From an uncultured Alistipes sp. (GTDB lineage: Bacteria > Bacteroidota > Bacteroidia > Bacteroidales > Rikenellaceae): 49,400 nt of DNA. The notes beneath the pieces were generated by a model that worked only from the letters and a program-made list of their open reading frames with translations, had not been told where the DNA came from and made no database searches. A program made the translations under genes and the position numbers. The DNA lies in NCBI GenBank assembly GCA_944321185.1, contig CALUKH010000011.1, positions 1-49,400 of the forward strand, written 5' to 3'. Within the stretch, counting starts at the first letter, position 1. Every line of letters starts with the position of its first letter. This document shows, piece after piece, positions 1,613 through 13,258 of the stretch.

Positions 1613-2482
1613 CTACTTGTAACTTACGATCAGCACCTTCGAGGATTCCCAGAAGCGGGCGGGATCCGTAATGAGCAGTTTTTCAACCACCTTGTCGGCA
1701 TTGGTCACCAGTTCGTACGCATCGTCGGGATGCGACGTAACGACGGTCACCTTCTTCTGTCCCAGAGGGATTTCGGTCAGCAGACGCGAATCGGCGGCCG
1801 TAAAGCTGTCGAGATTGGCCGTCGAGCCAACGGTCAGCGTCCGTCCGATGAAACCCTGCTTGTTGATGATCTGGGCATCGAGCAGCTCCTTCTCCGAGCC
1901 GACGATATAATAGACCGTATGGAGTTGGTTCTGGAGTTCGATCTTCTCGTCGCTGAGGCTTTCGGCCCGAGCCTGGCTCTGAGCGACCTCCTCGGTCAGC
2001 ACAGCGACCTCGATTCCCTTCTGGGCGAGCTCGTTGCGGAGCTGTTCGACTTCGGATTTCTTGGCGGTGAGCTGATCGTTCAGACCGGTGATCATCTTTT
2101 CGAGGCCTTCGATCCGCAGATTAGCCTTGCGCAGCTGGGCGGCGGCGCGTTGCAGCGAGGCGATTTTGGCATGATTCTCCTGCAGCAGCCGGTCGATGGC
2201 AGCAATATCGTTGTTGATTTCATCGATCGGGCGGCTGGGGCCTTCGGTGATACCGGAGACGGTGATCAGATTTTCACGCGACTTGATCAGCGCCAGATTT
2301 TCCGAGATGGCATTGATATCGGCGAAGACGAGATTGATGAGCGAATCCTTTTCGCCAACCACGACCGAAAGCGAGTCGCGCTGGTTTTCGGCCTGCAGCG
2401 CCACCTGACGGCTGACGCAGGAGGTCAATGCACCTGCGGCGAGGAGCACGGCGGCAATCATCAAATTGAATCCGTTTTTCAT
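1613..2482 (-). CDS. Coiled-coil lipoprotein of unknown function
   Basis: A 289-residue protein. The N-terminus MKNGFNLMIAAVLLAAG followed by ALTSC is a signal peptide with a lipobox, so the mature protein should be lipid-anchored at a Cys near residue 22. Most of the rest is predicted long helix/coiled coil with heptad-like Leu/Ala and many charged residues (for example RQVALQAENQRDSL and LRIEGLEKMITGLNDQL). A small C-terminal globular part ends in VLIVSYK. The ATG at 2482 is chosen over an in-frame upstream extension because it begins the signal peptide and lies downstream of a TATATTTG box. I do not recognise a family; a structural envelope or trafficking role is only a guess. Confidence 0.75.
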   Translation of the reverse strand: MKNGFNLMIAAVLLAAGALTSCVSRQVALQAENQRDSLSVVVGEKDSLINLVFADINAISENLALIKSRENLITVSGITEGPSRPIDEINNDIAAIDRLLQENHAKIASLQRAAAQLRKANLRIEGLEKMITGLNDQLTAKKSEVEQLRNELAQKGIEVAVLTEEVAQSQARAESLSDEKIELQNQLHTVYYIVGSEKELLDAQIINKQGFIGRTLTVGSTANLDSFTAADSRLLTEIPLGQKKVTVVTSHPDDAYELVTNADKVVEKLLITDPARFWESSKVLIVSYK

Positions 2483-2528
2483 GACACACACTAAATTAAG
2501 AGTTGCACACTGTTTTTGTCTTCGGCGG

Positions 2529-2536
2529 CAAATATA
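2529..2536 (-). promoter_or_regulatory. Promoter -7 box (lipoprotein gene)
   Basis: TATATTTG on the minus strand, 46 bp before the ATG at 2482. A TTTG lies 23 bp further upstream, a slightly long spacing. Confidence 0.6.
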
Positions 2537-2587
2537 GAAATAAAACGACAATTCTATCACAAAAAAAGTCGGCTCGGACAAAAAAAA

Positions 2588-2616
2588 GCGGATCACATTC
2601 CGAGAATGCGATCCGC
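2588..2616 (-). terminator. Terminator of rpmE2
   Basis: On the minus strand GCGGATC-G-CATTC / GAATG-T-GATCCGC forms a 12-bp stem with one mismatch and a 3-nt loop, followed by a run of eight T. It begins 25 bp after the rpmE2 stop. Confidence 0.85.
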
Positions 2617-2641
2617 ATGAGGTAAATGCCGATGCGACGAT

Positions 2642-2908
2642 TTACTTGGCGTTTTTCTTATCGTAGCGTTTTGCGTAGCGGCTCATAAACTTATCGACGC
2701 GACCGGCGGTGTCAACCAACTTCATCTTGCCCGTATAGAACGGGTGCGAGGTGTTGGAGATTTCCATCTTATACACGGGATAGGTTTCGCCGTTCACTTC
2801 GATGGTCTCTTTTGTCGAAACGGCGGACCGGCACAAAAACACGTGGTCGTTGGACATGTCCTTGAACGCCACTAAACGATAATTTTCCGGATGAATACCC
2901 TTTTTCAT
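2642..2908 (-). CDS. rpmE2: 50S ribosomal protein L31 type B
   Basis: An 88-residue protein that matches L31 in its zinc-independent type B form: the start MKKGIHPENYRLVAFKDM, the central FLCRSAVSTKETIEVNGE, and the end TSHPFYTGKMKLVDTAGRVDKF. It lacks the CxxC metal ligands of type A. It is a peripheral protein of the large subunit at the inter-subunit bridge. In many bacteria type B is expressed under zinc limitation; no Zur-like operator is evident here and it may be the only L31. It is transcribed alone, with its own promoter and terminator. Confidence 0.95.
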   Translation of the reverse strand: MKKGIHPENYRLVAFKDMSNDHVFLCRSAVSTKETIEVNGETYPVYKMEISNTSHPFYTGKMKLVDTAGRVDKFMSRYAKRYDKKNAK

Positions 2909-3281: not shown

Positions 3282-4952
3282 TCAACCCTTCCTGGCGGCA
3301 TCGTCGCGACGGATCTCCGTACGGCGGATCTTGCCGCTGATGGTCTTGGGCAGCGCATCGACGAATTCAATCACGCGCGGATACTTGTAGGGAGCCGTCA
3401 CACGTTTGACATGATCCTGCAACTCCTTGATCAGCGCGGCGCCGGCGCGTTCGCGCCACTCGGCCGCCAGGACGATCGTCGCCTTGACCACCTGTCCGCG
3501 GATCTCGTCCGGAACGCCCGTGATGGCACACTCCACGACGGCCGGATGGGTCATCAACGCACTCTCGACCTCGAAGGGGCCGATCCGGTAGCCGGAACTC
3601 TTGATGACGTCGTCGGCCCGGCCCACAAACCAGTAGTAACCGTCCTCGTCGCGCCAGGCCACGTCGCCCGTATAGTAGACGCCGTCGTGCCAGACTTCGC
3701 GCGTACGCTCCTCGTTGCGATAGTACTCCTTGAAGAGGCCGATGGGCTTTCCGCCGTCGGTGCGGATGACGATCTGCCCCTGTTCACCATCCTCGGCCGA
3801 GCGGCCGTCGGGCGTCAGCAGATCGATCCGGTACTGGGGGTTGGGGACGCCCATGCTGCCGGGTTTGGGCTCCATCCAGGGGAAGGTGCCGAGGGTCAGC
3901 GTCGTTTCGGTCTGACCGAATCCCTCCATCAGCCGGATGCCGGTCTGTGCCAGGAAGGTGTCGTAGACCGAACCGTTGAGCGCCTCGCCGGCCGTCGTGC
4001 AGTACTCGAGCGACGAGAGGTCGAAACGCGACAGATCCTCGCGGATCAGGAAGCGGTAGATCGTCGGAGGGGCGCAGAGCGAAGTGATATGGTACTGCTC
4101 GATCTTGTGCAGGATGTCGGCCGGAGTGAACTTCTCGTGGTCGTAGACGAAGAGCGTCGCTCCGGCAAACCACTGCCCGTAGAGTTTGCCCCAGGCGGCC
4201 TTGGCCCAGCCCGTATCGGCGATGGTCAGATGAAGGCTTCCCTCGTGGAGGTTGTGCCAGTAGCGGGCCGTGACGATGTGGCCGAGCGGATAGGTGAAGT
4301 CGTGAGCCACCATCTTCGGTTCGCCGGTGGTTCCCGAAGTGAAGTACATGAGCATGATGTCGTCGTTGCGGTTCGGGTGTTCGGGCCGCACGAAGGGGGC
4401 GGCCTGTTCGATGCCGCGGTGGAAGTCGAGGAATCCCTCGGGCACCTCGGGACCGACGCTGATGAGCGACTTGACCGTGGGGCTGTCGGGCATGGCCGCG
4501 GCGACATGATCGGTGATGACGCGTTCGCCGGCCACGACAATCGCCTTGATCGAGGCCGTATTGCAGCGATAGACGACATCCTTTCGGGTGAGCAGGTGGG
4601 TGGCCGGGATCACCACGGCCCCCAGCTTGTGGAGTGCCAGCACCGCGAACCAGAATTCGTAGCGGCGCTTGAGAATCAGCATCACGGGGTCGCCCTTTCC
4701 GATGCCGAGGCTCTGGAAATAGGCGGCCGTGCGGTCGCTTTCGCGCTTCATGTCGGCAAACGTAAAGCGGGCCACGTGATCCTTGTCGTCGGTCCAGACC
4801 ATGGCCAGCTGATCGGGCTGCTCGGCAGCGTAGCAGTCGACGACGTCGTAAGCGAAATTGAACGGCTCGGGCACCCGGATACGGAGGTGCTGTCGGAACT
4901 CCTCCTGCGAGGAGAAGTCGGTCCGGGCCAGATAACGATCTACCAGATTCAT
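3282..4952 (-). CDS. AMP-forming acyl-CoA synthetase
   Basis: A 556-residue enzyme of the ANL (acyl-adenylate-forming) superfamily. It activates a carboxylic acid with ATP and CoA to acyl-CoA, AMP and PPi. Visible core motifs are the P-loop-like YFTSGTTGEPK, GFGQTET, YYTGDVAWRDEDGYY, the hinge motif GRADDVIKSSGYRIGPFEVE, and the C-terminal PKTISGKIRR with its catalytic Lys. The pattern resembles medium-chain/acetyl-CoA synthetase-like members more than long-chain ligases; the substrate cannot be fixed from sequence. The upstream XRE-cupin gene ends 5 bp before the ATG, so the two are almost certainly co-transcribed and the regulator probably senses a related metabolite (inference). Confidence 0.88.
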   Translation of the reverse strand: MNLVDRYLARTDFSSQEEFRQHLRIRVPEPFNFAYDVVDCYAAEQPDQLAMVWTDDKDHVARFTFADMKRESDRTAAYFQSLGIGKGDPVMLILKRRYEFWFAVLALHKLGAVVIPATHLLTRKDVVYRCNTASIKAIVVAGERVITDHVAAAMPDSPTVKSLISVGPEVPEGFLDFHRGIEQAAPFVRPEHPNRNDDIMLMYFTSGTTGEPKMVAHDFTYPLGHIVTARYWHNLHEGSLHLTIADTGWAKAAWGKLYGQWFAGATLFVYDHEKFTPADILHKIEQYHITSLCAPPTIYRFLIREDLSRFDLSSLEYCTTAGEALNGSVYDTFLAQTGIRLMEGFGQTETTLTLGTFPWMEPKPGSMGVPNPQYRIDLLTPDGRSAEDGEQGQIVIRTDGGKPIGLFKEYYRNEERTREVWHDGVYYTGDVAWRDEDGYYWFVGRADDVIKSSGYRIGPFEVESALMTHPAVVECAITGVPDEIRGQVVKATIVLAAEWRERAGAALIKELQDHVKRVTAPYKYPRVIEFVDALPKTISGKIRRTEIRRDDAARKG

Positions 4953-4957
4953 ACCTC

Positions 4958-5515
4958 TTATAATATAATGGCCAGGAAACGGACCGTTTTACCATCCAGT
5001 GCCTTCATGCCGTGGGGCAGCGAGGAGTCGAAATAGAGGCTGTCGCCGGGGTTGAGTTCGATCTGCCGGCCGTCGAGTTCGATCAGCAGGCGCCCCTCCA
5101 GCACGTAGTTCATCTCCTGCCCGGGGTGGGTATTGAGATGCATCGGAGCGTCGTCGGGCGCGGGTTCGACGGTGACGATGAAGGGATCGATGCGCCGATC
5201 GCGGAATCCGGCGGCCAACGCCTCGTAGCGGTAGGCCTTGCGGCGCTCGACGGCAATGCCCTTGCCGGCGCGGGTAATGAAATAGGAGCTCATGCGGGGC
5301 TCTTCGCCGAACATCAGCACATCGAGCGGGATGCCGTAACGGCGGGAGATCGTCTGCAGGAGATTGACCGAGATGTCGGACCGACCGCTTTCGAGCGCCC
5401 GGTACTCCTCGAGCGGGATGTGGCAACAGTCGGCCAGCTCCTGCTCCGACAATTCGAGGACTTCGCGCAGCCCGCGCAGACGGGTTGCGATCGAGAGAAT
5501 GGGGTCGTCACACAT
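4958..5515 (-). CDS. XRE-family regulator with C-terminal cupin domain
   Basis: A 185-residue protein with two domains. Residues ~8-65 form an XRE/Cro-type helix-turn-helix (LSEQELADCCHIPLEEYRALESGR). Residues ~110-185 form a cupin beta-barrel (NTHPGQEMNYVLEGRLLIEL then NPGDSLYFDSSLPHGMKAL). Such proteins act as regulators whose cupin domain binds a small effector. The paired acyl-CoA synthetase gene follows after 5 bp, suggesting local regulation of fatty- or organic-acid activation. The start at the ATG at 5515 gives a normal XRE N-terminus. Confidence 0.88.
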   Translation of the reverse strand: MCDDPILSIATRLRGLREVLELSEQELADCCHIPLEEYRALESGRSDISVNLLQTISRRYGIPLDVLMFGEEPRMSSYFITRAGKGIAVERRKAYRYEALAAGFRDRRIDPFIVTVEPAPDDAPMHLNTHPGQEMNYVLEGRLLIELDGRQIELNPGDSLYFDSSLPHGMKALDGKTVRFLAIIL

Positions 5516-5702: not shown

Positions 5703-5734
5703 TTTGGTTTTTCCCTTCCGAAACGCTATATTTG
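5703..5734 (+). promoter_or_regulatory. Promoter of the histidine operon
   Basis: TTTG (5703-5706), 20 bp, TATATTTG (5727-5734), a full match to the Bacteroidota consensus. The leader peptide begins 18 bp downstream, so the leader transcript should run from about 5741 to the terminator at 5927. Confidence 0.85.
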
Positions 5735-5752
5735 CATCCAACGAGTTCAACC

Positions 5753-5827
5753 ATGATGCAGTTCATCCATATCCATCATCATCACCACCACTTCGACCAG
5801 GGGGCGGCGATCGTGTATGGAGCATGA
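5753..5827 (+). CDS. hisL: Histidine operon leader peptide
   Basis: A 24-codon ORF starting at tandem ATG codons. Its core MQFIHIHHHHHHFDQ contains seven His codons (four CAT, three CAC), six of them consecutive. It lies between a consensus promoter and an intrinsic terminator that precedes hisG. By the classical attenuation logic, a shortage of charged tRNA-His would stall ribosomes on the His run and change folding of the downstream RNA so the terminator does not form. That mechanism is inferred from layout; the antiterminator pairing was not established by eye. The position, composition and context make chance occurrence very unlikely. Confidence 0.9.
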   Translation: MMQFIHIHHHHHHFDQGAAIVYGA

Positions 5828-5845
5828 ACGGCAGGCTGAACGAAA

Positions 5846-5860
5846 GGTCCCGAAGGGACC
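5846..5860 (+). promoter_or_regulatory. Leader hairpin between hisL and the attenuator
   Basis: Perfect stem GGTCCC/GGGACC with loop GAA, 18 nt after the hisL stop. It may be part of the pause or antiterminator fold of the leader RNA. Confidence 0.55.
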
Positions 5861-5897
5861 GCAGACAGACCGGACAAACCGAAAAAGACAATACATG

Positions 5898-5927
5898 AAG
5901 CTCACCCCTCGACGGGTGGGCTTTTTT
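5898..5927 (+). terminator. Attenuator terminator of the histidine operon
   Basis: Stem AAGCTCACCC / GGGTGGGCTT (10 bp including one T-G wobble) with loop CTCGAC, directly followed by a T-run (5922-5927). It lies 58 bp upstream of hisG and 70 bp downstream of the hisL stop, the expected place for a leader-controlled attenuator. Confidence 0.88.
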
Positions 5928-5984
5928 GTTGGCCCATGCGGGGAGGGGCGGGGAGGAAAAACGACAATCAAACACACACCCGAC

Positions 5985-6836
5985 ATGTTGAGAATAGCAA
6001 TCCAGGCCAAGGGCCGACTGAACGAACAAAGCACAAGCCTGCTGGCCGAAGCGGGCATCCAGGTAGCCGAAAGCAAACGCAAACTGATCTCCCGAGCGGA
6101 GGGATTTCCGCTGGAGGTGCTCTACCTGCGCGACGACGACATACCGCAGGCCGTGACGATGGGCGTCGCGGATCTGGGGATCGTGGGGCTGAACGAGGTG
6201 GCCGAGAAGGGCTTCCGCGTCGATCAGCTCATGGATCTGGGCTTCGGCGGCTGCCGCCTCTCGCTGGCCGTGCCGAAAGGCACCGACTACAACGGACCCG
6301 ACTTCTTCCGCGGCAAGCGCATCGCCACCTCCTACCCCAACATCCTCTCGCGCTACTTTGCCGAGCGGGGCATCGAGGCCGAAATTCACCGCATCGAGGG
6401 TTCGGTCGAGATCGCACCGGCGGTCGGCATGTCGGACGCCATCTTCGACATCGTCTCGTCGGGCGGCACGCTCATCTCCAACGGGCTGGTCGAGGTCGAG
6501 AAGGTGCTCTTCTCGGAGGCGGTGCTGATTGCCAACCCGGATCTGGACCCGGCCAAGCGCCGCGAATGCGAGCAGCTGACCTTCCGTTTCAACTCGATTC
6601 TGGAGAGCCGCGGCATGAAGTACGTGCTGATGAATCTGCCCCAGGAGCAGTTGCAGGAGGCGATCCGCATCCTGCCGGGGATGCGCAGCCCGACGGTGCT
6701 GCCGCTGGCGCAGGAGGGGTGGTGCTCGATCCACGCCGTCATCGCGCAGGAGCAGCTCTGGGAGCGTATCGAACGCCTGAAGGAGATCGGCGCCGAGGGC
6801 ATTCTGGTCCTGGCCCTCGAAAACATGATCCGATGA
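5985..6836 (+). CDS. hisG: ATP phosphoribosyltransferase, long form
   Basis: HisG catalyses the first step of histidine synthesis, ATP + PRPP to N1-(5'-phosphoribosyl)-ATP. The 283 residues start MLRIAIQAKGRLNEQ, carry the PRPP/substrate region around SVEIAPAVGMSDAIFDIVSSGG, and end in the ~70-residue C-terminal domain (SPTVLPLAQEGWCSIHAV) that marks the long, hexameric, histidine-feedback-regulated form needing no HisZ. The start at 5985 is chosen because the in-frame upstream ATG codons precede or overlap the attenuator stem and add non-conserved residues. It is the first structural gene of the operon; hisD overlaps its stop by ATGA. Confidence 0.96.
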   Translation: MLRIAIQAKGRLNEQSTSLLAEAGIQVAESKRKLISRAEGFPLEVLYLRDDDIPQAVTMGVADLGIVGLNEVAEKGFRVDQLMDLGFGGCRLSLAVPKGTDYNGPDFFRGKRIATSYPNILSRYFAERGIEAEIHRIEGSVEIAPAVGMSDAIFDIVSSGGTLISNGLVEVEKVLFSEAVLIANPDLDPAKRRECEQLTFRFNSILESRGMKYVLMNLPQEQLQEAIRILPGMRSPTVLPLAQEGWCSIHAVIAQEQLWERIERLKEIGAEGILVLALENMIR

Positions 6837-8197
6837 AACGAACCCCGAAAAACGCAGAAATCATGCAGATGCTGAAGATATACGACAATCCGCCCCGCAG
6901 CGAGTGGGGCCGGCTGAGCGAACGCTGCACGCGCAGCGAAGAGGAGATCACCGAACAGGTGGCCGCCATCCTGGCGGAGGTGCGCACGGGCGGCGACCGG
7001 GCCTTACGCGAGATCACGCAACGCATCGAGGGACACCGTCCCGAACGGTTCGAGATTCCGGCCGAGGAGCTGGATGCCGCCGCACGTGCACTTCCCGAAG
7101 CGATGAAGGAGGCACTCCGCACGGCCAAGTCCCAGATCGAGGCCTTCCACCGCGCACAGCTGCCCGCCGAGGTGTGTGTCGAGACCCTGCCCGGCGTGCG
7201 ATGCCTGCAACGGGCGATGGCGATCGACCGCGTGGGGCTCTACATTCCGGGGGGCAAGGCGCCGCTCTTCTCGACGGTGCTGATGCTGGCCGTACCGGCA
7301 CGGGTGGCGGGCTGCCGCGAGGTGATACTCTGCACCCCGGCGCGTGCCGACGGAAGCATTGCCCCCGAAATCGCCTGTGCCGCACGGCTCTGCGGCGTCG
7401 ACCGGGTCTTCGCCGTGGGCGGCGCCCAGGCCATTGCCGCCATGGCCTACGGCACGGAGAGCATCCCGCGTGTGGAGAAGATCTTCGGCCCCGGGAACCG
7501 CTACGTGACGAAGGCCAAACAGCTGATCGGTGCCCGTGACGTGGCGATCGACCTCCCGGCCGGGCCGTCGGAGGTGCTGGTGCTGGCCGACGAGGGGGCT
7601 TCGCCCGCCTTCGCGGCTGCCGACCTGCTCTCGCAGGCCGAACACGGTGGCGACAGCCAAGCGGTGCTGGTCTGCCAGACGGCGGACTTTGCCCGGGCCG
7701 TACAACGGGCCGTCGAGGAGCAGTTGTCGCAGCGCCGCCGCGGGGAGATCATCCGCGAAGCGCTGCAGCAGAGCCGGATCATCGTGCTGACGGAGCGTGC
7801 CGACCGCATCGCCTTCTCGAATGTCTATGCCCCGGAGCACCTGATCCTGTCGATGCGCGATCCGTGGGAGGCGGCCTCGCAGATCACCGCGGCCGGCAGC
7901 GTCTTCATCGGACCGTGGTCGCCCGAGAGCGCCGGCGACTACGCCTCGGGCACGAACCACACGCTGCCGACCGGAGGCTGGGCCCGTTCGTACAGCGGCG
8001 TGAATACCGACTCGTTCCTGCGCAAGATCACCTTCCAGGAGCTGACGCGCGAGGGGCTTGCCCGCCTGGCCCCGACCATCGAGACGATGGCCCTCGGCGA
8101 AGGGCTCGATGCCCATGCCGCCGCCGTGCGCATCCGGCTCGAAAGCCCCGAGAGACAGAACGAAACCCCTTCCCCGCAAATCCCGAAGCAATCATGA
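6833..8197 (+). CDS. hisD: Histidinol dehydrogenase
   Basis: HisD oxidises L-histidinol to L-histidine in two NAD-dependent steps, the last reactions of the pathway. Signatures are DRVGLYIPGGKAPLFSTVLM, the NAD/zinc-site region GPSEVLVLADEGA, LLSQAEHGGDSQAVLV, and the C-terminal SAGDYASGTNHTLPTGG with its conserved Asp/His zinc ligands. The ATG at 6833 overlaps the hisG stop (ATGA) and gives 454 residues, a little longer than the usual ~430. ATG 6863 (MQMLKIYDNPP) is a plausible alternative with a more typical length. hisC overlaps its stop by the same ATGA arrangement. Confidence 0.95.
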   Translation: MKRTPKNAEIMQMLKIYDNPPRSEWGRLSERCTRSEEEITEQVAAILAEVRTGGDRALREITQRIEGHRPERFEIPAEELDAAARALPEAMKEALRTAKSQIEAFHRAQLPAEVCVETLPGVRCLQRAMAIDRVGLYIPGGKAPLFSTVLMLAVPARVAGCREVILCTPARADGSIAPEIACAARLCGVDRVFAVGGAQAIAAMAYGTESIPRVEKIFGPGNRYVTKAKQLIGARDVAIDLPAGPSEVLVLADEGASPAFAAADLLSQAEHGGDSQAVLVCQTADFARAVQRAVEEQLSQRRRGEIIREALQQSRIIVLTERADRIAFSNVYAPEHLILSMRDPWEAASQITAAGSVFIGPWSPESAGDYASGTNHTLPTGGWARSYSGVNTDSFLRKITFQELTREGLARLAPTIETMALGEGLDAHAAAVRIRLESPERQNETPSPQIPKQS

Positions 8198-9228
8198 GAC
8201 CCCTTGAAGAGCTGATCCGCCCGAACATCCGGGCCCTGCAACCCTACTCGACGGCGCGCGACGAATACGCCGGCGGTGAAATTTCGACGTGGCTCGATGC
8301 CAACGAAAGCCCCTACGACAACGGTGTGAACCGCTATCCGGATCCGCACCAGCGCCAGCTGAAACACCTCGTCTCCCGGCTGAAGGGGGTGCGCGAGGGG
8401 CAGATCTTCCTGGGCAACGGCAGCGACGAGGCGATCGACCTGGCCTACCGGATCTTCTGCACGCCGGGGCGCGACAACGCCGTCTCGATCGCACCGACCT
8501 ACGGCATGTACCGCGTGGCAGCCGACACGAACGACGTCGAGATGCGCGAAGTGGCACTCGATACGGATTTCGCGCTGCGGCCCGATGCGCTGCTCGCCGC
8601 CGCGGACGAACGCACGAAACTGCTGTGGCTCTGTTCACCGAACAATCCCACGGGCAATCGGTTCCCGACCGTGGAGATCGAGCACCTGCTGCGGGCCTTC
8701 CCGGGGATGGTCATCCTGGACGAAGCCTACATTGACTTCGCCTCGGAGCCGGGGTTTCTGGGGCGTCTCGACGAATTTCCGAACCTCATCATCCTGCAAA
8801 CGCTCTCCAAGGCGTGGGGCATGGCCGGGCTGCGCCTGGGCATGGCCTTTGCCGCGGAACCCGTGGCCGAGCTCTTCGCCCGGGTGAAATACCCCTACAA
8901 CATCAACGGCCCGACGCAGGCGGAGGTGATCCGCCGGCTGACCCGGCCGGTCGACGACCAGATCGCGGAGGTGCGCCGCGAACGGGAACGCGTGGCCCGT
9001 GCGCTGGCCGAATGCCGGGCCATCGAGCGGGTCTACCCCTCCGATGCCAACTTCCTGCTGGCGCGCACTCCGGCACCCGATGCGCTCTACGAGGCGCTGA
9101 TCGAGGCGGGGGTCATCGTCCGCAACCGTTCGCGCGTACGGGGCTGTGCGGGGTGTCTGCGCATCACCATCGGCCGTCCCGAGGAGAACGACCGCCTGTT
9201 ACGAACTGTCCAAAATTTCCGCCCATGA
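8194..9228 (+). CDS. hisC: Histidinol-phosphate aminotransferase
   Basis: A 344-residue PLP-dependent fold-type I aminotransferase converting imidazole-acetol phosphate and glutamate to histidinol phosphate. Evidence: substrate/cofactor motifs DANESPYDN, LGNGSDEAIDLAYR, CSPNNPTGN, the Asp of VILDEAYIDF, and the Schiff-base Lys in LQTLSKAWGMAGLRLGMA. Near the C-terminus the Arg-containing RNRSRVRGCAGCLRITIG binds the substrate carboxylate/phosphate. The ATG overlaps the hisD stop, and hisB overlaps this stop (ATGA at 9225). Confidence 0.96.
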   Translation: MRPLEELIRPNIRALQPYSTARDEYAGGEISTWLDANESPYDNGVNRYPDPHQRQLKHLVSRLKGVREGQIFLGNGSDEAIDLAYRIFCTPGRDNAVSIAPTYGMYRVAADTNDVEMREVALDTDFALRPDALLAAADERTKLLWLCSPNNPTGNRFPTVEIEHLLRAFPGMVILDEAYIDFASEPGFLGRLDEFPNLIILQTLSKAWGMAGLRLGMAFAAEPVAELFARVKYPYNINGPTQAEVIRRLTRPVDDQIAEVRRERERVARALAECRAIERVYPSDANFLLARTPAPDALYEALIEAGVIVRNRSRVRGCAGCLRITIGRPEENDRLLRTVQNFRP

Positions 9229-10352
9229 AAAAAGCCCTCTTCATCGACCGCGACGGCACGATCCTCGCGGAACCCGCCGACGAACAGATCGACAGCCTCG
9301 CGAAAATGGAGTTCATCCCCAGGGTGATTTCGGCGCTCAAGGCCCTTTCGACGCTCGATTTCGAGCTGGTCCTGGCCTCGAACCAGGACGGATTGGGAAC
9401 TCCCGCCTTTCCGGAGGAGACGTTCCTTCCGCCCCACGAAAAGATGCTCGCGACGCTGCGCGGCGAAGGCGTCACCTTCGACGACCAGCTCATCGACCGT
9501 ACCTTCGAGCGCGACAACGCCCCGACGCGCAAACCCCGCACGGGCCTCTTCACCCGCTACCTGGACGGGTCGTACGATCTGGCCGCAAGCTACGTCATCG
9601 GCGACCGTGTGACGGATCTCCAGCTGGCCCGCAACCTCGGGGCGCGCGGCATTCTGCTCCGCCCCGAGGACGAAGGTCGCCGGATGGTGGCCGAGGCGGA
9701 GCTGGAGGACGTCTGCGCTCTGGTAACCGACTCGTGGGCCGAAGTGGCCGAGTTTATCCGCCGTCCGGAACGGTATGTCGACCTGCGACGCCAGACGCGC
9801 GAGACGCAGATCCGCGTACGGCTGGACCTCGACGGCCGCGGCGACTTCAACGACCGCATCTCGACCGGACTGCGCTTTCTGGACCACATGCTCTCGCAGA
9901 TCGCCCACCACGGCGGCGTGTCGCTGGCCGTCGAGGCGCAGGGCGATCTGGACATCGACGAACACCACACCATGGAGGATGTGGCCCTGACGCTGGGCGA
10001 GGCCATCGACCGGGCGCTGGGTTCGAAGGCCGGAATTGCCCGCTACGGATTCGCCCTGCCGATGGACGACAGCTGCGCGCTGGTGCTCCTCGACTTCGGC
10101 GGCCGGATCGACTTCGAATGGGAGGTCACATTCCGCCGCGAACGGATCGGCGACGTTCCGACCGAGATGTTCCGCCACTTCTTCCAGTCGCTCTGCTGCG
10201 CCGCGCGCTGCAACCTGCGGATCGCGGCCCGCGGCGAGAATGACCACCACAAGGCCGAAGCCATCTTCAAGGCCTTTGCCCGGGCCCTGCGGATGGCCGT
10301 CATGCGTCAAGGTTTCGGATACGACATACCCAGCAGCAAAGGAGTCCTATGA
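9225..10352 (+). CDS. hisB: Bifunctional histidinol-phosphatase / imidazoleglycerol-phosphate dehydratase
   Basis: A 375-residue fusion. Residues 1-~165 are a HAD-type histidinol phosphatase (FIDRDGTI with D8 and D10 as nucleophile and acid/base). Residues ~187-375 are the IGPD dehydratase (FNDRISTGLRFLDHMLSQIAHHG, DEHHTMEDVALTLGEAI, and HHKAEAIFKAFARAL, whose His/Glu bind manganese). The Cys/His zinc loop present in the E. coli phosphatase half is not seen; the region reads ERDNAPTRKPRTG. Bifunctional HisB occurs in enterobacteria and Bacteroidota. hisH overlaps the stop by ATGA. Confidence 0.96.
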   Translation: MKKALFIDRDGTILAEPADEQIDSLAKMEFIPRVISALKALSTLDFELVLASNQDGLGTPAFPEETFLPPHEKMLATLRGEGVTFDDQLIDRTFERDNAPTRKPRTGLFTRYLDGSYDLAASYVIGDRVTDLQLARNLGARGILLRPEDEGRRMVAEAELEDVCALVTDSWAEVAEFIRRPERYVDLRRQTRETQIRVRLDLDGRGDFNDRISTGLRFLDHMLSQIAHHGGVSLAVEAQGDLDIDEHHTMEDVALTLGEAIDRALGSKAGIARYGFALPMDDSCALVLLDFGGRIDFEWEVTFRRERIGDVPTEMFRHFFQSLCCAARCNLRIAARGENDHHKAEAIFKAFARALRMAVMRQGFGYDIPSSKGVL

Positions 10353-11020
10353 TAGCCGTCGTCGATTATGCCACGGGCAACCTGCGATCGGTTGCCAATG
10401 CCCTGCGGCGGGCCGGTGCGGAGTTCACGCTCACGGCCGATGCCGCGTTGCTGCGCCGGGCCGAACGGGTGATCCTCCCGGGCGTAGGCGAAGCGTCGAG
10501 TGCCATGGCCCGACTCCGCGAGCGGGGGCTGGACACGGTGCTGCCGACGCTGACCTGCCCCGTGCTGGGGATCTGCATCGGGATGCAGCTGCTGTGCCTC
10601 TCGAGCGAGGAGGGCAATGCCGAATGTCTGGGAGTCTTCCCCACTCGGGTCCGACGCCTTCCCTCCGGGACCGAGGCCGGAGCTGAAACCGGGGCCGAAC
10701 CCGTCGAGAAAATCGGCATTTTCCCCGCGGTCGGGAGCCTTCCCGTCGGAGGGGCTCCTCGTCTGAAAATTCCCCACGTCGGTTGGGACACGATCGAGGG
10801 GTTGCGTTCGCCGCTCTTCGAGGGGATTCCCGAGCAGAGCTACGTCTATTACGTCCACTCCTACGCGGCGGATCCCTGTCCGTCGACAATCGCCTCGACC
10901 GACTACGGCCGCCGTTTCAGCGCAGCCCTCCAACGCGACAACTTCTTCGGCACCCAGTTCCACCCCGAGAAGAGCGGTGCGGTGGGTGCCCGGATTCTGC
11001 AGAATTTCCTGACCCTGTAA
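10349..11020 (+). CDS. hisH: Imidazole glycerol phosphate synthase, glutaminase subunit
   Basis: HisH hydrolyses glutamine and channels ammonia to HisF to make IGP and AICAR. Triad residues are visible: nucleophile C76 in [11 protein letters not shown], and His/Glu in [11 protein letters not shown]. The oxyanion strand [12 protein letters not shown] is present. At 223 residues it is about 25 longer than usual: between VRRLP (~104) and LKIPHVGWD (~139) is a Gly/Ala/Glu/Pro-rich insertion ([16 protein letters not shown]...) not found in typical HisH. The reading frame is intact. It overlaps hisB at ATGA; hisA starts about 100 bp after its stop. Confidence 0.94.
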
Positions 11021-11118
11021 CGAACTCTCCGCCCGAAAGCGCCGCAAAGCTCCGCCGCCCAACCCGCCGGAAACCCGCCGCGCACCCCGGGTCCAAACCC
11101 AACGAACAACCTTTACCC

Positions 11119-11850
11119 ATGAAAATCACCATCATACCCGCCACGGACCTCATCGACGGCCACTGCGTGCGCCTCACACAGGGCGACTACGCCCGGCAGA
11201 CGATCTACTACCGGGATCCGCTCGAGGCGGCACTTCGCTTCGAAGGGGCCGGCATCCGCCGCCTGCATCTGGTCGATCTCGACGGCGCGAAGGCCTCCGA
11301 GCCGTGCAACCTCCGCACGCTGGAGCGCATCGCCACCCGCACGTCGCTCGAAATTCAGTACGGCGGCGGCATCAAGAGCCGCGAGGCGCTGCACAGCGTC
11401 TTCGACGCCGGAGCCCGACGCGCCATCTGCGGCAGCATCGCCGTCAGCCGCCCGGAACTCTTCGCCGCCTGGCTGGCGGAATTCGGCCCCGAACGGCTGA
11501 TCCTCGGTGCCGACATCCGCGACGGCCGGATCGCCGTGAAGGGGTGGCTCGAAACCTCCCCGACGACGGCCGACGCGTTGATCCGCCAGTTCCTGCCCCA
11601 CGGCCTCGAACAGGTCATCTGCACCGACATCTCGCGCGACGGCATGCTCTGCGGCCCCTCGGCCGAATTCTACGCCGATCTGCAACGACAATTCCCCACG
11701 GTCGAAATCACCGTCAGCGGCGGCATCTCGTCGCTGGACGACATCCGCCGCCTCGACCAACAGCAACTGCGGAGCGTCATCGTCGGAAAGGCGCTCTACG
11801 AAGGACGTATCACCCTCCAGGAACTCGAACAATGCTTGCCAAACGAATAA
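11119..11850 (+). CDS. hisA: ProFAR isomerase
   Basis: A 243-residue (beta/alpha)8 barrel that isomerises the aminoaldose ProFAR to the aminoketose PRFAR. The N-terminal catalytic Asp lies in [20 protein letters not shown], and the second in [17 protein letters not shown]. Phosphate-binding glycines are seen in [10 protein letters not shown] and [11 protein letters not shown]. The ATG at 11119 is the first consistent with the family N-terminus; the upstream part of the frame reads through hisH and spacer. The ~98-bp hisH-hisA gap is the longest inside the operon and has no terminator. The gene overlaps hisF by 19 bp. Confidence 0.95.
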
Positions 11851-12584
11851 TACCCTGTCTGGACATCCGCGACGGTCAGACCGTCAAGGGCATCCACTTC
11901 GAGGAGCTGCGCCGGGTCGGCGACCCCGTGGAACTGGGCGCCAAATACGCTGCGCAGGGGGCCGACGAACTGGTCTACCTCGACATCAGCGCCACGCAGC
12001 AGGGGCGCCGCACCTTCACCGACCTGGTCACGCGCATCGCCGCACGCATCGACATTCCGTTCACTGTCGGCGGCGGGATCTCGTCGGTCGAGGATGCCGG
12101 ACGGCTGCTCGAGGCCGGCGCCGACAAGGTGACGGTCAACAGCGCCGCCGTGCGCAACCCCGCGCTGATCGACGCCATTGCCGCCCGTTATGGTTCGCAG
12201 TTTGTCGTGGCGGCGATCGACGCCCGGCTCGTCGACGGACGCCGCGTGGTCACGACCCACGGCGGCACCCGCCCCACCGACCGCGAACTCTTCACCTGGG
12301 CGCGCGAATGCGTCGAGCGCGGCGCCGGCGAGATCCTCTTCACCTCGATGGACCACGACGGCACGAAGAACGGCTATCCGTGCGAGGTCTTTGCGCGGCT
12401 GGCCGAGCTGCCCGTGCCGATCATCGCCTCGGGAGGCGCCGGCACGGTGGGCCACATCGCCGAGGTCCTCACCCGCGGAGGCGCCGACGCCGCACTGGCC
12501 GCCAGCATCTTCCACTACAACGAGATCCCCATCCCGACGCTCAAGCGCGAACTCCACCGTGCCGGCATTCCGGTCCGGCTCTGA
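11832..12584 (+). CDS. hisF: Imidazole glycerol phosphate synthase, cyclase subunit
   Basis: A 250-residue barrel subunit that joins HisH-derived ammonia to PRFAR, giving IGP and AICAR. Both catalytic Asp residues are visible: [20 protein letters not shown] (near residue 11) and [16 protein letters not shown]. Phosphate-binding segments [14 protein letters not shown] and [14 protein letters not shown] are also present. The ATG at 11832 lies inside the end of hisA, so the two are probably translationally coupled. Confidence 0.96.
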
Positions 12585-12637
12585 ACCCGGCAAACCCGGC
12601 AACAAAAGAAAGCAAAACTCAAAAATTCATCCATACC

Positions 12638-13258
12638 ATGAAGATTCAAGCCATTCCGTTTACGGACCTCAACCTCGAAAAACTCCCCGGCGGGCTGGTC
12701 CCCGCCATCATCCAGGACGACCGCACGCTGCAGGTACTGATGCTGGGCTACATGAACCGCGAAGCCTACGAAAAGAGCCTCGCCGAGGGTCGCGTCACCT
12801 TCTACAGCCGCACGCGGCAATGCCTCTGGACCAAGGGCGAAACCAGCGGCCACTGGCTGGAGATCGTCTCCGTGGCCGCCGACTGCGACGCCGATACGCT
12901 GCTGGTGCGGGTCATCCCCCACGGCCCGACCTGCCACACGGGGTCGAAGACCTGTTTCGGGGCGGCCATCCCCGAGAGCGAAGGGTTCATCCGCTACCTG
13001 CAGAGCGTCATCCAGGGCCGCCACGCCGAGATGCCCGAGGGCTCCTATACGTCGAAGCTCTTCACGCGCGGCGTGAACAAGATTGCTCAAAAGGTGGGCG
13101 AGGAGGCCGTCGAGACGGTCATCGAGGCCGTGGCCCGCAACCGCGACGCCATGATCTACGAAGCCTCGGATCTCATCTACCACCTGCTCGTGCTGCTCGA
13201 GGCCACCGGTTGTACGATTGCCGATCTCGAGCGCGAACTGGCCCGCCGCCACTCCTGA
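12638..13258 (+). CDS. hisI: Bifunctional phosphoribosyl-AMP cyclohydrolase / phosphoribosyl-ATP pyrophosphatase
   Basis: A 206-residue HisIE fusion for steps 2 and 3 of the pathway. Residues 1-~110 are the HisI cyclohydrolase (VLMLGYMNREAYEKSL, TFYSRTRQCLWTKGETSGHWL, with metal ligands in DCDADTLLVRV and GPTCHTG). Residues ~118-206 are the HisE pyrophosphohydrolase (NKIAQKVGEEAVETVIEAV and EASDLIYHLLVLLEATG, with MazG-like Glu/Asp metal ligands). It is the last operon gene, 53 bp after hisF, and completes all ten activities in eight structural genes. No clear terminator follows; a 14-bp tandem repeat lies just downstream. Confidence 0.96.
   Translation: MKIQAIPFTDLNLEKLPGGLVPAIIQDDRTLQVLMLGYMNREAYEKSLAEGRVTFYSRTRQCLWTKGETSGHWLEIVSVAADCDADTLLVRVIPHGPTCHTGSKTCFGAAIPESEGFIRYLQSVIQGRHAEMPEGSYTSKLFTRGVNKIAQKVGEEAVETVIEAVARNRDAMIYEASDLIYHLLVLLEATGCTIADLERELARRHS

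Follow-up and report, generated by a model that had tools for sequence, protein, structure and literature searches.

The histidine operon of an uncultured Alistipes sp., a gut bacterium, is very probably controlled by a ribosome-stalling transcription attenuator, and this mechanism of histidine control is proposed here for Bacteroidota. The operon is complete (hisGDCBHAF(IE), eight genes at 5985-13258, all over the NCBIfam cut-offs) and lies within a window of 49,400 nucleotides, the whole stretch of DNA that was analysed. Directly 5' of it is a short ORF rich in His codons, with an intrinsic terminator between this ORF and the first structural gene, hisG, and a conserved antiterminator, identified in silico, excludes the terminator. 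Central to the proposed switch is a helix between the 3' end of the leader and the 5' arm of the terminator.

Promoter, leader ORF and terminator of the his operon

The features of the region are listed in Table 1. An earlier note on this DNA had described a promoter, a 24-codon ORF with seven His codons (six of them in a row) and an intrinsic terminator with six T ahead of a complete his operon, and each of these parts was confirmed. The promoter is of the Bacteroidota type; the pattern TTTG-N(19-21)-TATATTTG occurs six times in the whole window against 0.06 expected, and a sigma-70 promoter scan of the window found none. Of 118 homologues, 94 have TAnnTTTG, given as the -7 box of sigma-A in PMC9723704, no more than 80 nt 5' of the leader ATG, the number expected from mononucleotide shuffles being 5.1.

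Table 1. Features of the his leader region and his operon (positions in the window)
Feature	Position	Strand	Details
Promoter, Bacteroidota-type	5703..5734	+	TTTG 5703-5706, 20-nt spacer, TATATTTG 5727-5734
Leader peptide ORF	5753..5827	+	Reads MMQFIHIHHHHHHFDQGAAIVYGA*; 24 codons, 7 His
Regulatory codons	5768..5791	+	His 5768, Ile 5771, six His 5774-5791; predicted stall sites
Antiterminator 5' strand	5793..5818	+	UCGA 5793-5796, GGGG 5800-5803, GGC 5806-5808, UCGUGUAU 5811-5818
Intermediate hairpin	5846..5860	+	GGUCCC-GAA-GGGACC, 6 bp; sits in antiterminator loop
Antiterminator 3' strand	5891..5912	+	AUACAUGA 5891-5898, GCU 5900-5902, CCCC 5905-5908, UCGA 5909-5912
Intrinsic terminator	5897..5927	+	Stem-loop 5897-5924, 11 pairs, loop of 6; six T at 5922-5927
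hisG, ATP phosphoribosyltransferase	5985..6836	+	TIGR00070
hisD	6833..8197	+	TIGR00069
hisC	8194..9228	+	TIGR01141
hisB, bifunctional	9225..10352	+	NF003937
hisH	10349..11020	+	TIGR01855
hisA	11119..11850	+	TIGR00007
hisF	11832..12584	+	TIGR00735
hisIE, bifunctional	12638..13258	+	NF002747

The leader ORF starts at 5753 or alternatively at 5756, and its His codons are codons 6 and 8-13. Six consecutive CAY (His) codons have a single occurrence in the window, and 100 shuffles of it yielded none. The UAG that is common within the antiterminator strand (GGGGUAGGC) reads GGGGGCGGC in the window, so that the leader ORF continues to the TGA at 5825. The same UAG is also lost in a relative with a 99% identical HisG, and extended leaders occur in other relatives too. 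Beside the his leader, on the minus strand (3282-5515), lies a divergent pair: an acyl-CoA synthetase-like gene and one for a regulator-like protein that matches PuuR weakly.

The RNA from 5741 to 5931 folds better than all of 200 shuffles (z -3.36). According to the folds, the 5' strand of the antiterminator lies within the leader ORF and its 3' strand overlaps the 5' arm of the terminator; the two pairings are mutually exclusive. Relatives, too, show pairing between the RNA at the position homologous to 5793-5818 and the 5' arm of their terminator. The intermediate hairpin of the earlier note is real, but among 55 aligned leaders it is unique to the window, being different or missing in the others, and it was rejected as a conserved element; even the closest relative has a different hairpin in its place. 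The spacer between stop codon and terminator measures 69 nt in the window against a median of 33, most relatives having a shorter one.

Transcription would begin just 3' of 5734, with a ribosome translating the leader behind RNA polymerase. Where charged His-tRNA is scarce, the ribosome would stall on the His codons and leave the strand 5793-5818 free to pair with 5891-5912; the emerging 5' arm of the terminator would thus be captured and the polymerase would continue into hisG. Where His-tRNA is plentiful, the ribosome would proceed to the stop codon, the strand would be hidden or inactively folded, and the terminator would then form and transcription stop.

Conservation of the leader and terminator

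The Bacteroidota sample was not random: it holds 80 of 132 relatives (three of the 80 stretches being repeats), 23 loci of the genus, loci from the best 30 of 70 matching genomes of a family search and from the best 30 of 332 of a phylum search, and a further 37 of the 70 and 40 of the 332, with one genome (G172) left out. Judged by record titles, most of the named relatives belong to Alistipes or other Bacteroidales, and the others are genomes of the genus, family and phylum. With a detector that takes only ATG-started ORFs with at least three His in seven codons, and that therefore may miss leaders and at this lowest threshold may also pass chance ORFs, a His-rich short ORF was found in 148 of 204 distinct hisG-upstream regions. 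A terminator lies within 130 nt in 119 of the 148, leaving 29 without a detected one; 43 of the 119 came from the phylum-wide search and 76 from other searches, and the element is present also in families beyond the order of the window. The other 56 regions, without an ATG-started His-rich ORF, include some assigned by title to Muribaculaceae, Bacteroides and Porphyromonadaceae, and also some to Alistipes or Rikenellaceae (L044, L053, L060, L100). When ten of the regions scored as leaderless were read again, two (L095, L205) proved to contain His-rich frames without ATG. A stricter detector, requiring at least four of one residue in eight codons, finds His with a terminator in 107 of the 204 regions and any other residue in four at most. 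Conservation of the His run and terminator, to which the earlier note had tied its reading, is thus present in many relatives.

A covariance model based on 55 leaders was searched against 101 genus genomes. Strong matches (E 3.9e-14 or better) occur in exactly the 23 genomes that carry hisG, many of which contributed to building the model, and in none of the 78 genomes without hisG, where the best match has an E of 2.2e-4. Four of the 23 have weaker additional matches (E 1.2e-6 to 4.0e-5), which are plain terminators. At the level of the order, 247 genomes were searched, and the best 30 matches comprise the window and 29 other loci, three of the order-level genomes (G449, G457, G566) being already in the phylum-search set. 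All 29 lie 5' of hisG, 28 have a His-rich leader and a terminator as scored by script, and none of their leader peptides is among those of the training alignment. Twenty second-tier loci include eight His leaders before hisG, three Trp, one Phe/Tyr and one Asn leader, and seven loci without a leader, six of which resemble plain terminators and one the end of a His/Asp-rich protein. A detectable hisG was encountered in only 23 of the 101 genus genomes (8 of 38 among the most complete), and histidine synthesis may have been lost in most of the genus.

A chance arrangement, in which the His run arose by accident and the terminator is part of a different unit, has a practically negligible probability, being contradicted alike by the conservation across the phylum, the residue specificity, the model matches and the shuffles. 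It is also extremely improbable, if somewhat less so, that a tRNA- or protein-sensing riboregulator (a T-box or an RNA-binding protein) sets the terminator and the His ORF is incidental. T-boxes govern his genes in Firmicutes and Actinobacteria, according to the accessible text of PMC9413887, but an Rfam search of the window at gathering scores returned two tRNAs only, with no regulatory RNA and no T-box, and both the six-His run, absent from the shuffles, and the frequency of His-rich ORFs before hisG speak against an incidental ORF.

Competing pairings and the position of the ribosome

The 5' arm of the terminator has its complement in the RNA where the leader ORF ends. Of 119 regions, 77 have a best pairing that overlaps the leader stop codon; in 33 it lies before the stop, inside the ORF, and in nine just after it. 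In arm swaps, which like the permutations below ignore the relatedness of the sequences, the native leader-arm pairings total -1269.9 kcal/mol against a mean of -929.0 (sd 24.9) for dissimilar arms, the best of 2000 draws reaching -1014.9. Native pairing beats 95% of its own dissimilar-arm swaps in 66 of the 119 and is in no case worse than half of them. Under a weaker control, in which any different arm was admitted, a median of 13% of swaps are as good as the native pairing, and against shuffled leader strands the mean z is -2.1, with 49% below -2.

As the MAFFT alignment of the 55 leaders misaligns the stop region, the stop codon and the terminator arm served as anchors for counting base pairs; eight of the 55 rows, in which the stop is lost or the register differs, were excluded, including the row of the window itself. 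With the stop codon setting the register, standard pairs fill 344 of 376 core cells (47 rows), and the maximum in 2000 whole-arm permutations is 335. Position -3 holds G-C, A-U, C-G and G-U pairs in 38 of 47 cells, plus one U-A, and the A of the stop codon stands opposite C in 13 of the 47 rows. Unrelated arms of other lineages still pair, as in GGUAGGUC/GGCUUACC, GAGGUAGGUC/GGACUUGCCU, CUCAAGCG/CCGUUUGA and GCAGGUAG/CCUACCUG. A second helix, of GUGUAUGG with AUACAU, has weaker support than the pairing of leader and terminator arm: in a Rikenellaceae-centred set (n=47) the native value is -303.3 against a permutation mean of -262.0 and minimum of -315.4, and in 85 sequences it is -507.4 against a permutation minimum of -483.7. 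The alternative antiterminator fold for which the earlier note had asked exists in silico, and it changes in step with the terminator across lineages.

These pairings bear also on control at the translation of hisG, by reinitiation or occlusion instead of termination, which is highly unlikely though not to the same degree as a riboregulator. Leader peptides can act via reinitiation, as stated in the accessible text of PMC4833913, but over much shorter distances than the 157 nt between the end of the leader ORF and the start of hisG. Of the 148 leader-bearing regions, 119 have a strong intrinsic terminator and its T run 3' of the leader, and the competing pairings involve the terminator arm and not the hisG start.

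Folding with a ribosome footprint, proposed earlier as a check on attenuation by ribosome stalling, gives antitermination for a stall at the early His codons of the window and termination for a ribosome at the stop codon. With the A site at 5762-5774, the long antiterminator (5793-5818 with 5891-5912) forms at equilibrium and the terminator probability is 0.00-0.04; with the A site from 5777 on, the terminator is favoured at equilibrium, and with the ribosome at the stop its probability is 1.00 and that of antiterminator pairing 0.08. In a transcript ending before the 3' arm of the terminator, the antiterminator reaches 0.93-0.99 up to A site 5789; for A sites between 5789 and the stop, antiterminator pairing ranges from 0.12 to 0.72, and without a ribosome the arm pairs at 0.15 or 0.47 depending on the 5' end and the arm chosen. 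As the stop inside the antiterminator strand is lost in the window, a ribosome at the actual stop hides the strand only partly, assuming a footprint like that of E. coli. The folds suggest that the strand is otherwise tied up or too weak.

In truncated transcripts of the 119 homologues, the arm pairs with upstream RNA at a mean of 0.97 if a ribosome stands at the first His codon and 0.96 if it stands at the last; the means are 0.32 for a ribosome at the stop and 0.61 without one. Pairing is higher at the first His codon than at the stop in 118 of the 119, and in 85 the difference exceeds 0.5. For a ribosome at the stop, pairing falls below 0.2 in 57 and exceeds 0.5 in 33, these counts coming from a simple footprint model with no shuffled control. 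At equilibrium, the terminator probability for a stall at the first His codon has a mean of 0.81 and is below 0.5 in only 22 of the 119. The terminator thus mostly wins at equilibrium even with a stalled ribosome, so the switch must be mostly kinetic.

Leaders before other amino-acid genes and comparison with known systems

The second-tier matches of the his-derived model led to leaders of the same design before other genes: Trp-rich before trpB and an anthranilate synthase-like gene, Phe/Tyr-rich before prephenate dehydratase (pheA), and Asn-rich before asparagine synthase B (asnB). The identities of asnB and trpB are over the NCBIfam cut-offs; prephenate dehydratase and anthranilate synthase have strong matches that stay under the cut-offs of their families. 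At pheA, 23 of 30 order-level loci and 26 of 30 genus loci carry a Phe-rich leader with a terminator ahead of the gene; among the latter, the genome of the window has a Phe/Tyr-rich leader, MRLYGFAYYFYYFFFYHKGKSGSVCIG, with a terminator before its own pheA (L393, contig C41, match 2042-2860, minus strand). In 60 pheA regions the stricter detector finds Phe in 45, Tyr in 19 and any other residue in one at most. In one subgroup of the genus, the pheA matches (L402-L411) contain one or two stop codons. Trp-codon leaders with terminators precede trpB or the anthranilate synthase-like gene at four loci (L310, L316, L320, L240), three of which came from the his-derived model; at L320 the start of the leader lies outside the model match and the leader was read in part. 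Asn-rich leaders (MFILNNFNLLINNNPFER, MYLLNNNNLFNYNPFQW) with a terminator precede asnB at L311 (484-540), L323, L350 and L353, the last three representing all three genomes of one family in the order of the window, and none was seen at the 28 other asnB loci examined. These are possible Asn-sensing attenuators.

Such leaders bear on a further explanation, in which the His-rich ORF encodes a functional small peptide, for example for metal binding, and the terminator sets a fixed his level. His-rich peptides can bind metals, and the residues flanking the His run are kept within subgroups of Alistipes; phylum-wide, however, the His content mainly persists and the remainder of the peptide does not. 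The Phe/Tyr leaders at pheA and the Trp leaders at some trp genes, with the same layout, fit codon sensing, and the RNA strand at the leader end varies in step with the terminator arm. A functional peptide is consequently very unlikely, if the least so of the four alternatives. On balance, the his, pheA, trp and, in one family, asnB leaders seem to belong to a phylum-wide set of ribosome-stalling attenuators, sensing His, Phe/Tyr, Trp and Asn respectively, with Asn as a new specificity and with an antiterminator strand centred on the end of the leader ORF. A conserved attenuator only makes sense if the position of the ribosome can affect the polymerase in time. If this reading is correct, ribosomes keep near enough to RNA polymerase to serve as a sensor in Bacteroidota, a major phylum of the gut in which Shine-Dalgarno sequences are little used, and the leaders offer a testable handle on transcription-translation coupling there. 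This bearing on coupling and the breadth in the phylum are what make the his attenuator of interest, its kind being known.

The general mechanism is textbook; the his version in Bacteroidota matches no Rfam family. Older surveys by the Lyubetsky group may have touched Bacteroidota. A literature search of titles and the starts of abstracts, with subscription journals mostly outside its range, found no report of a his attenuator in this phylum. In the accessible text of a paper on Bacteroidota his genes (PMC8305728), 'attenuat' occurs once and concerns E. coli and S. enterica. The 5' UTR sORFs of B. thetaiotaomicron are called 'reminiscent of leader peptides' in the available part of PMC7366714. 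In the same phylum, and with the same mechanism proposed, there are the 'strong clues' for leader-peptide attenuation 5' of amino-acid biosynthesis operons in Flavobacterium psychrophilum (PMC9723704); the main text of that paper contains neither 'histidine' nor 'his operon', and its operon list may be in the supplement. The Bacteroid-trp RNA (RF01692), listed in a table of PMC2864571, is from the same phylum but senses Trp and not His. The window and the genome that contains it both lack a match to its model. The Bacteroid-trp RNA seems to work alike, as its match in L240 has a Trp-codon leader and a terminator before a trpB-like gene.

The His_leader model (RF00514) has no match in the window at its gathering score and none in the genome of the window at E 0.001; sub-cut-off matches occur in two of 21 genomes, and no His-rich ORF was found by script at either locus. 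In the trp and phe attenuators of E. coli, stalling of the ribosome at cognate codons releases an RNA strand that sequesters the terminator 5' arm, and the enterobacterial his attenuator follows the same logic with a set of three hairpins. The layout in Alistipes had been said to mirror the latter. This holds for the His-codon leader, the intrinsic terminator before hisG and the alternative antiterminator, but not for the three-hairpin form, as the intermediate hairpin is not conserved. The Bacteroidota version instead has one competing long-range helix and a Bacteroidota promoter, and its freed strand, unlike that of the enterobacterial his and E. coli trp and phe attenuators, overlaps the leader stop codon in 77 of the 119 relatives.
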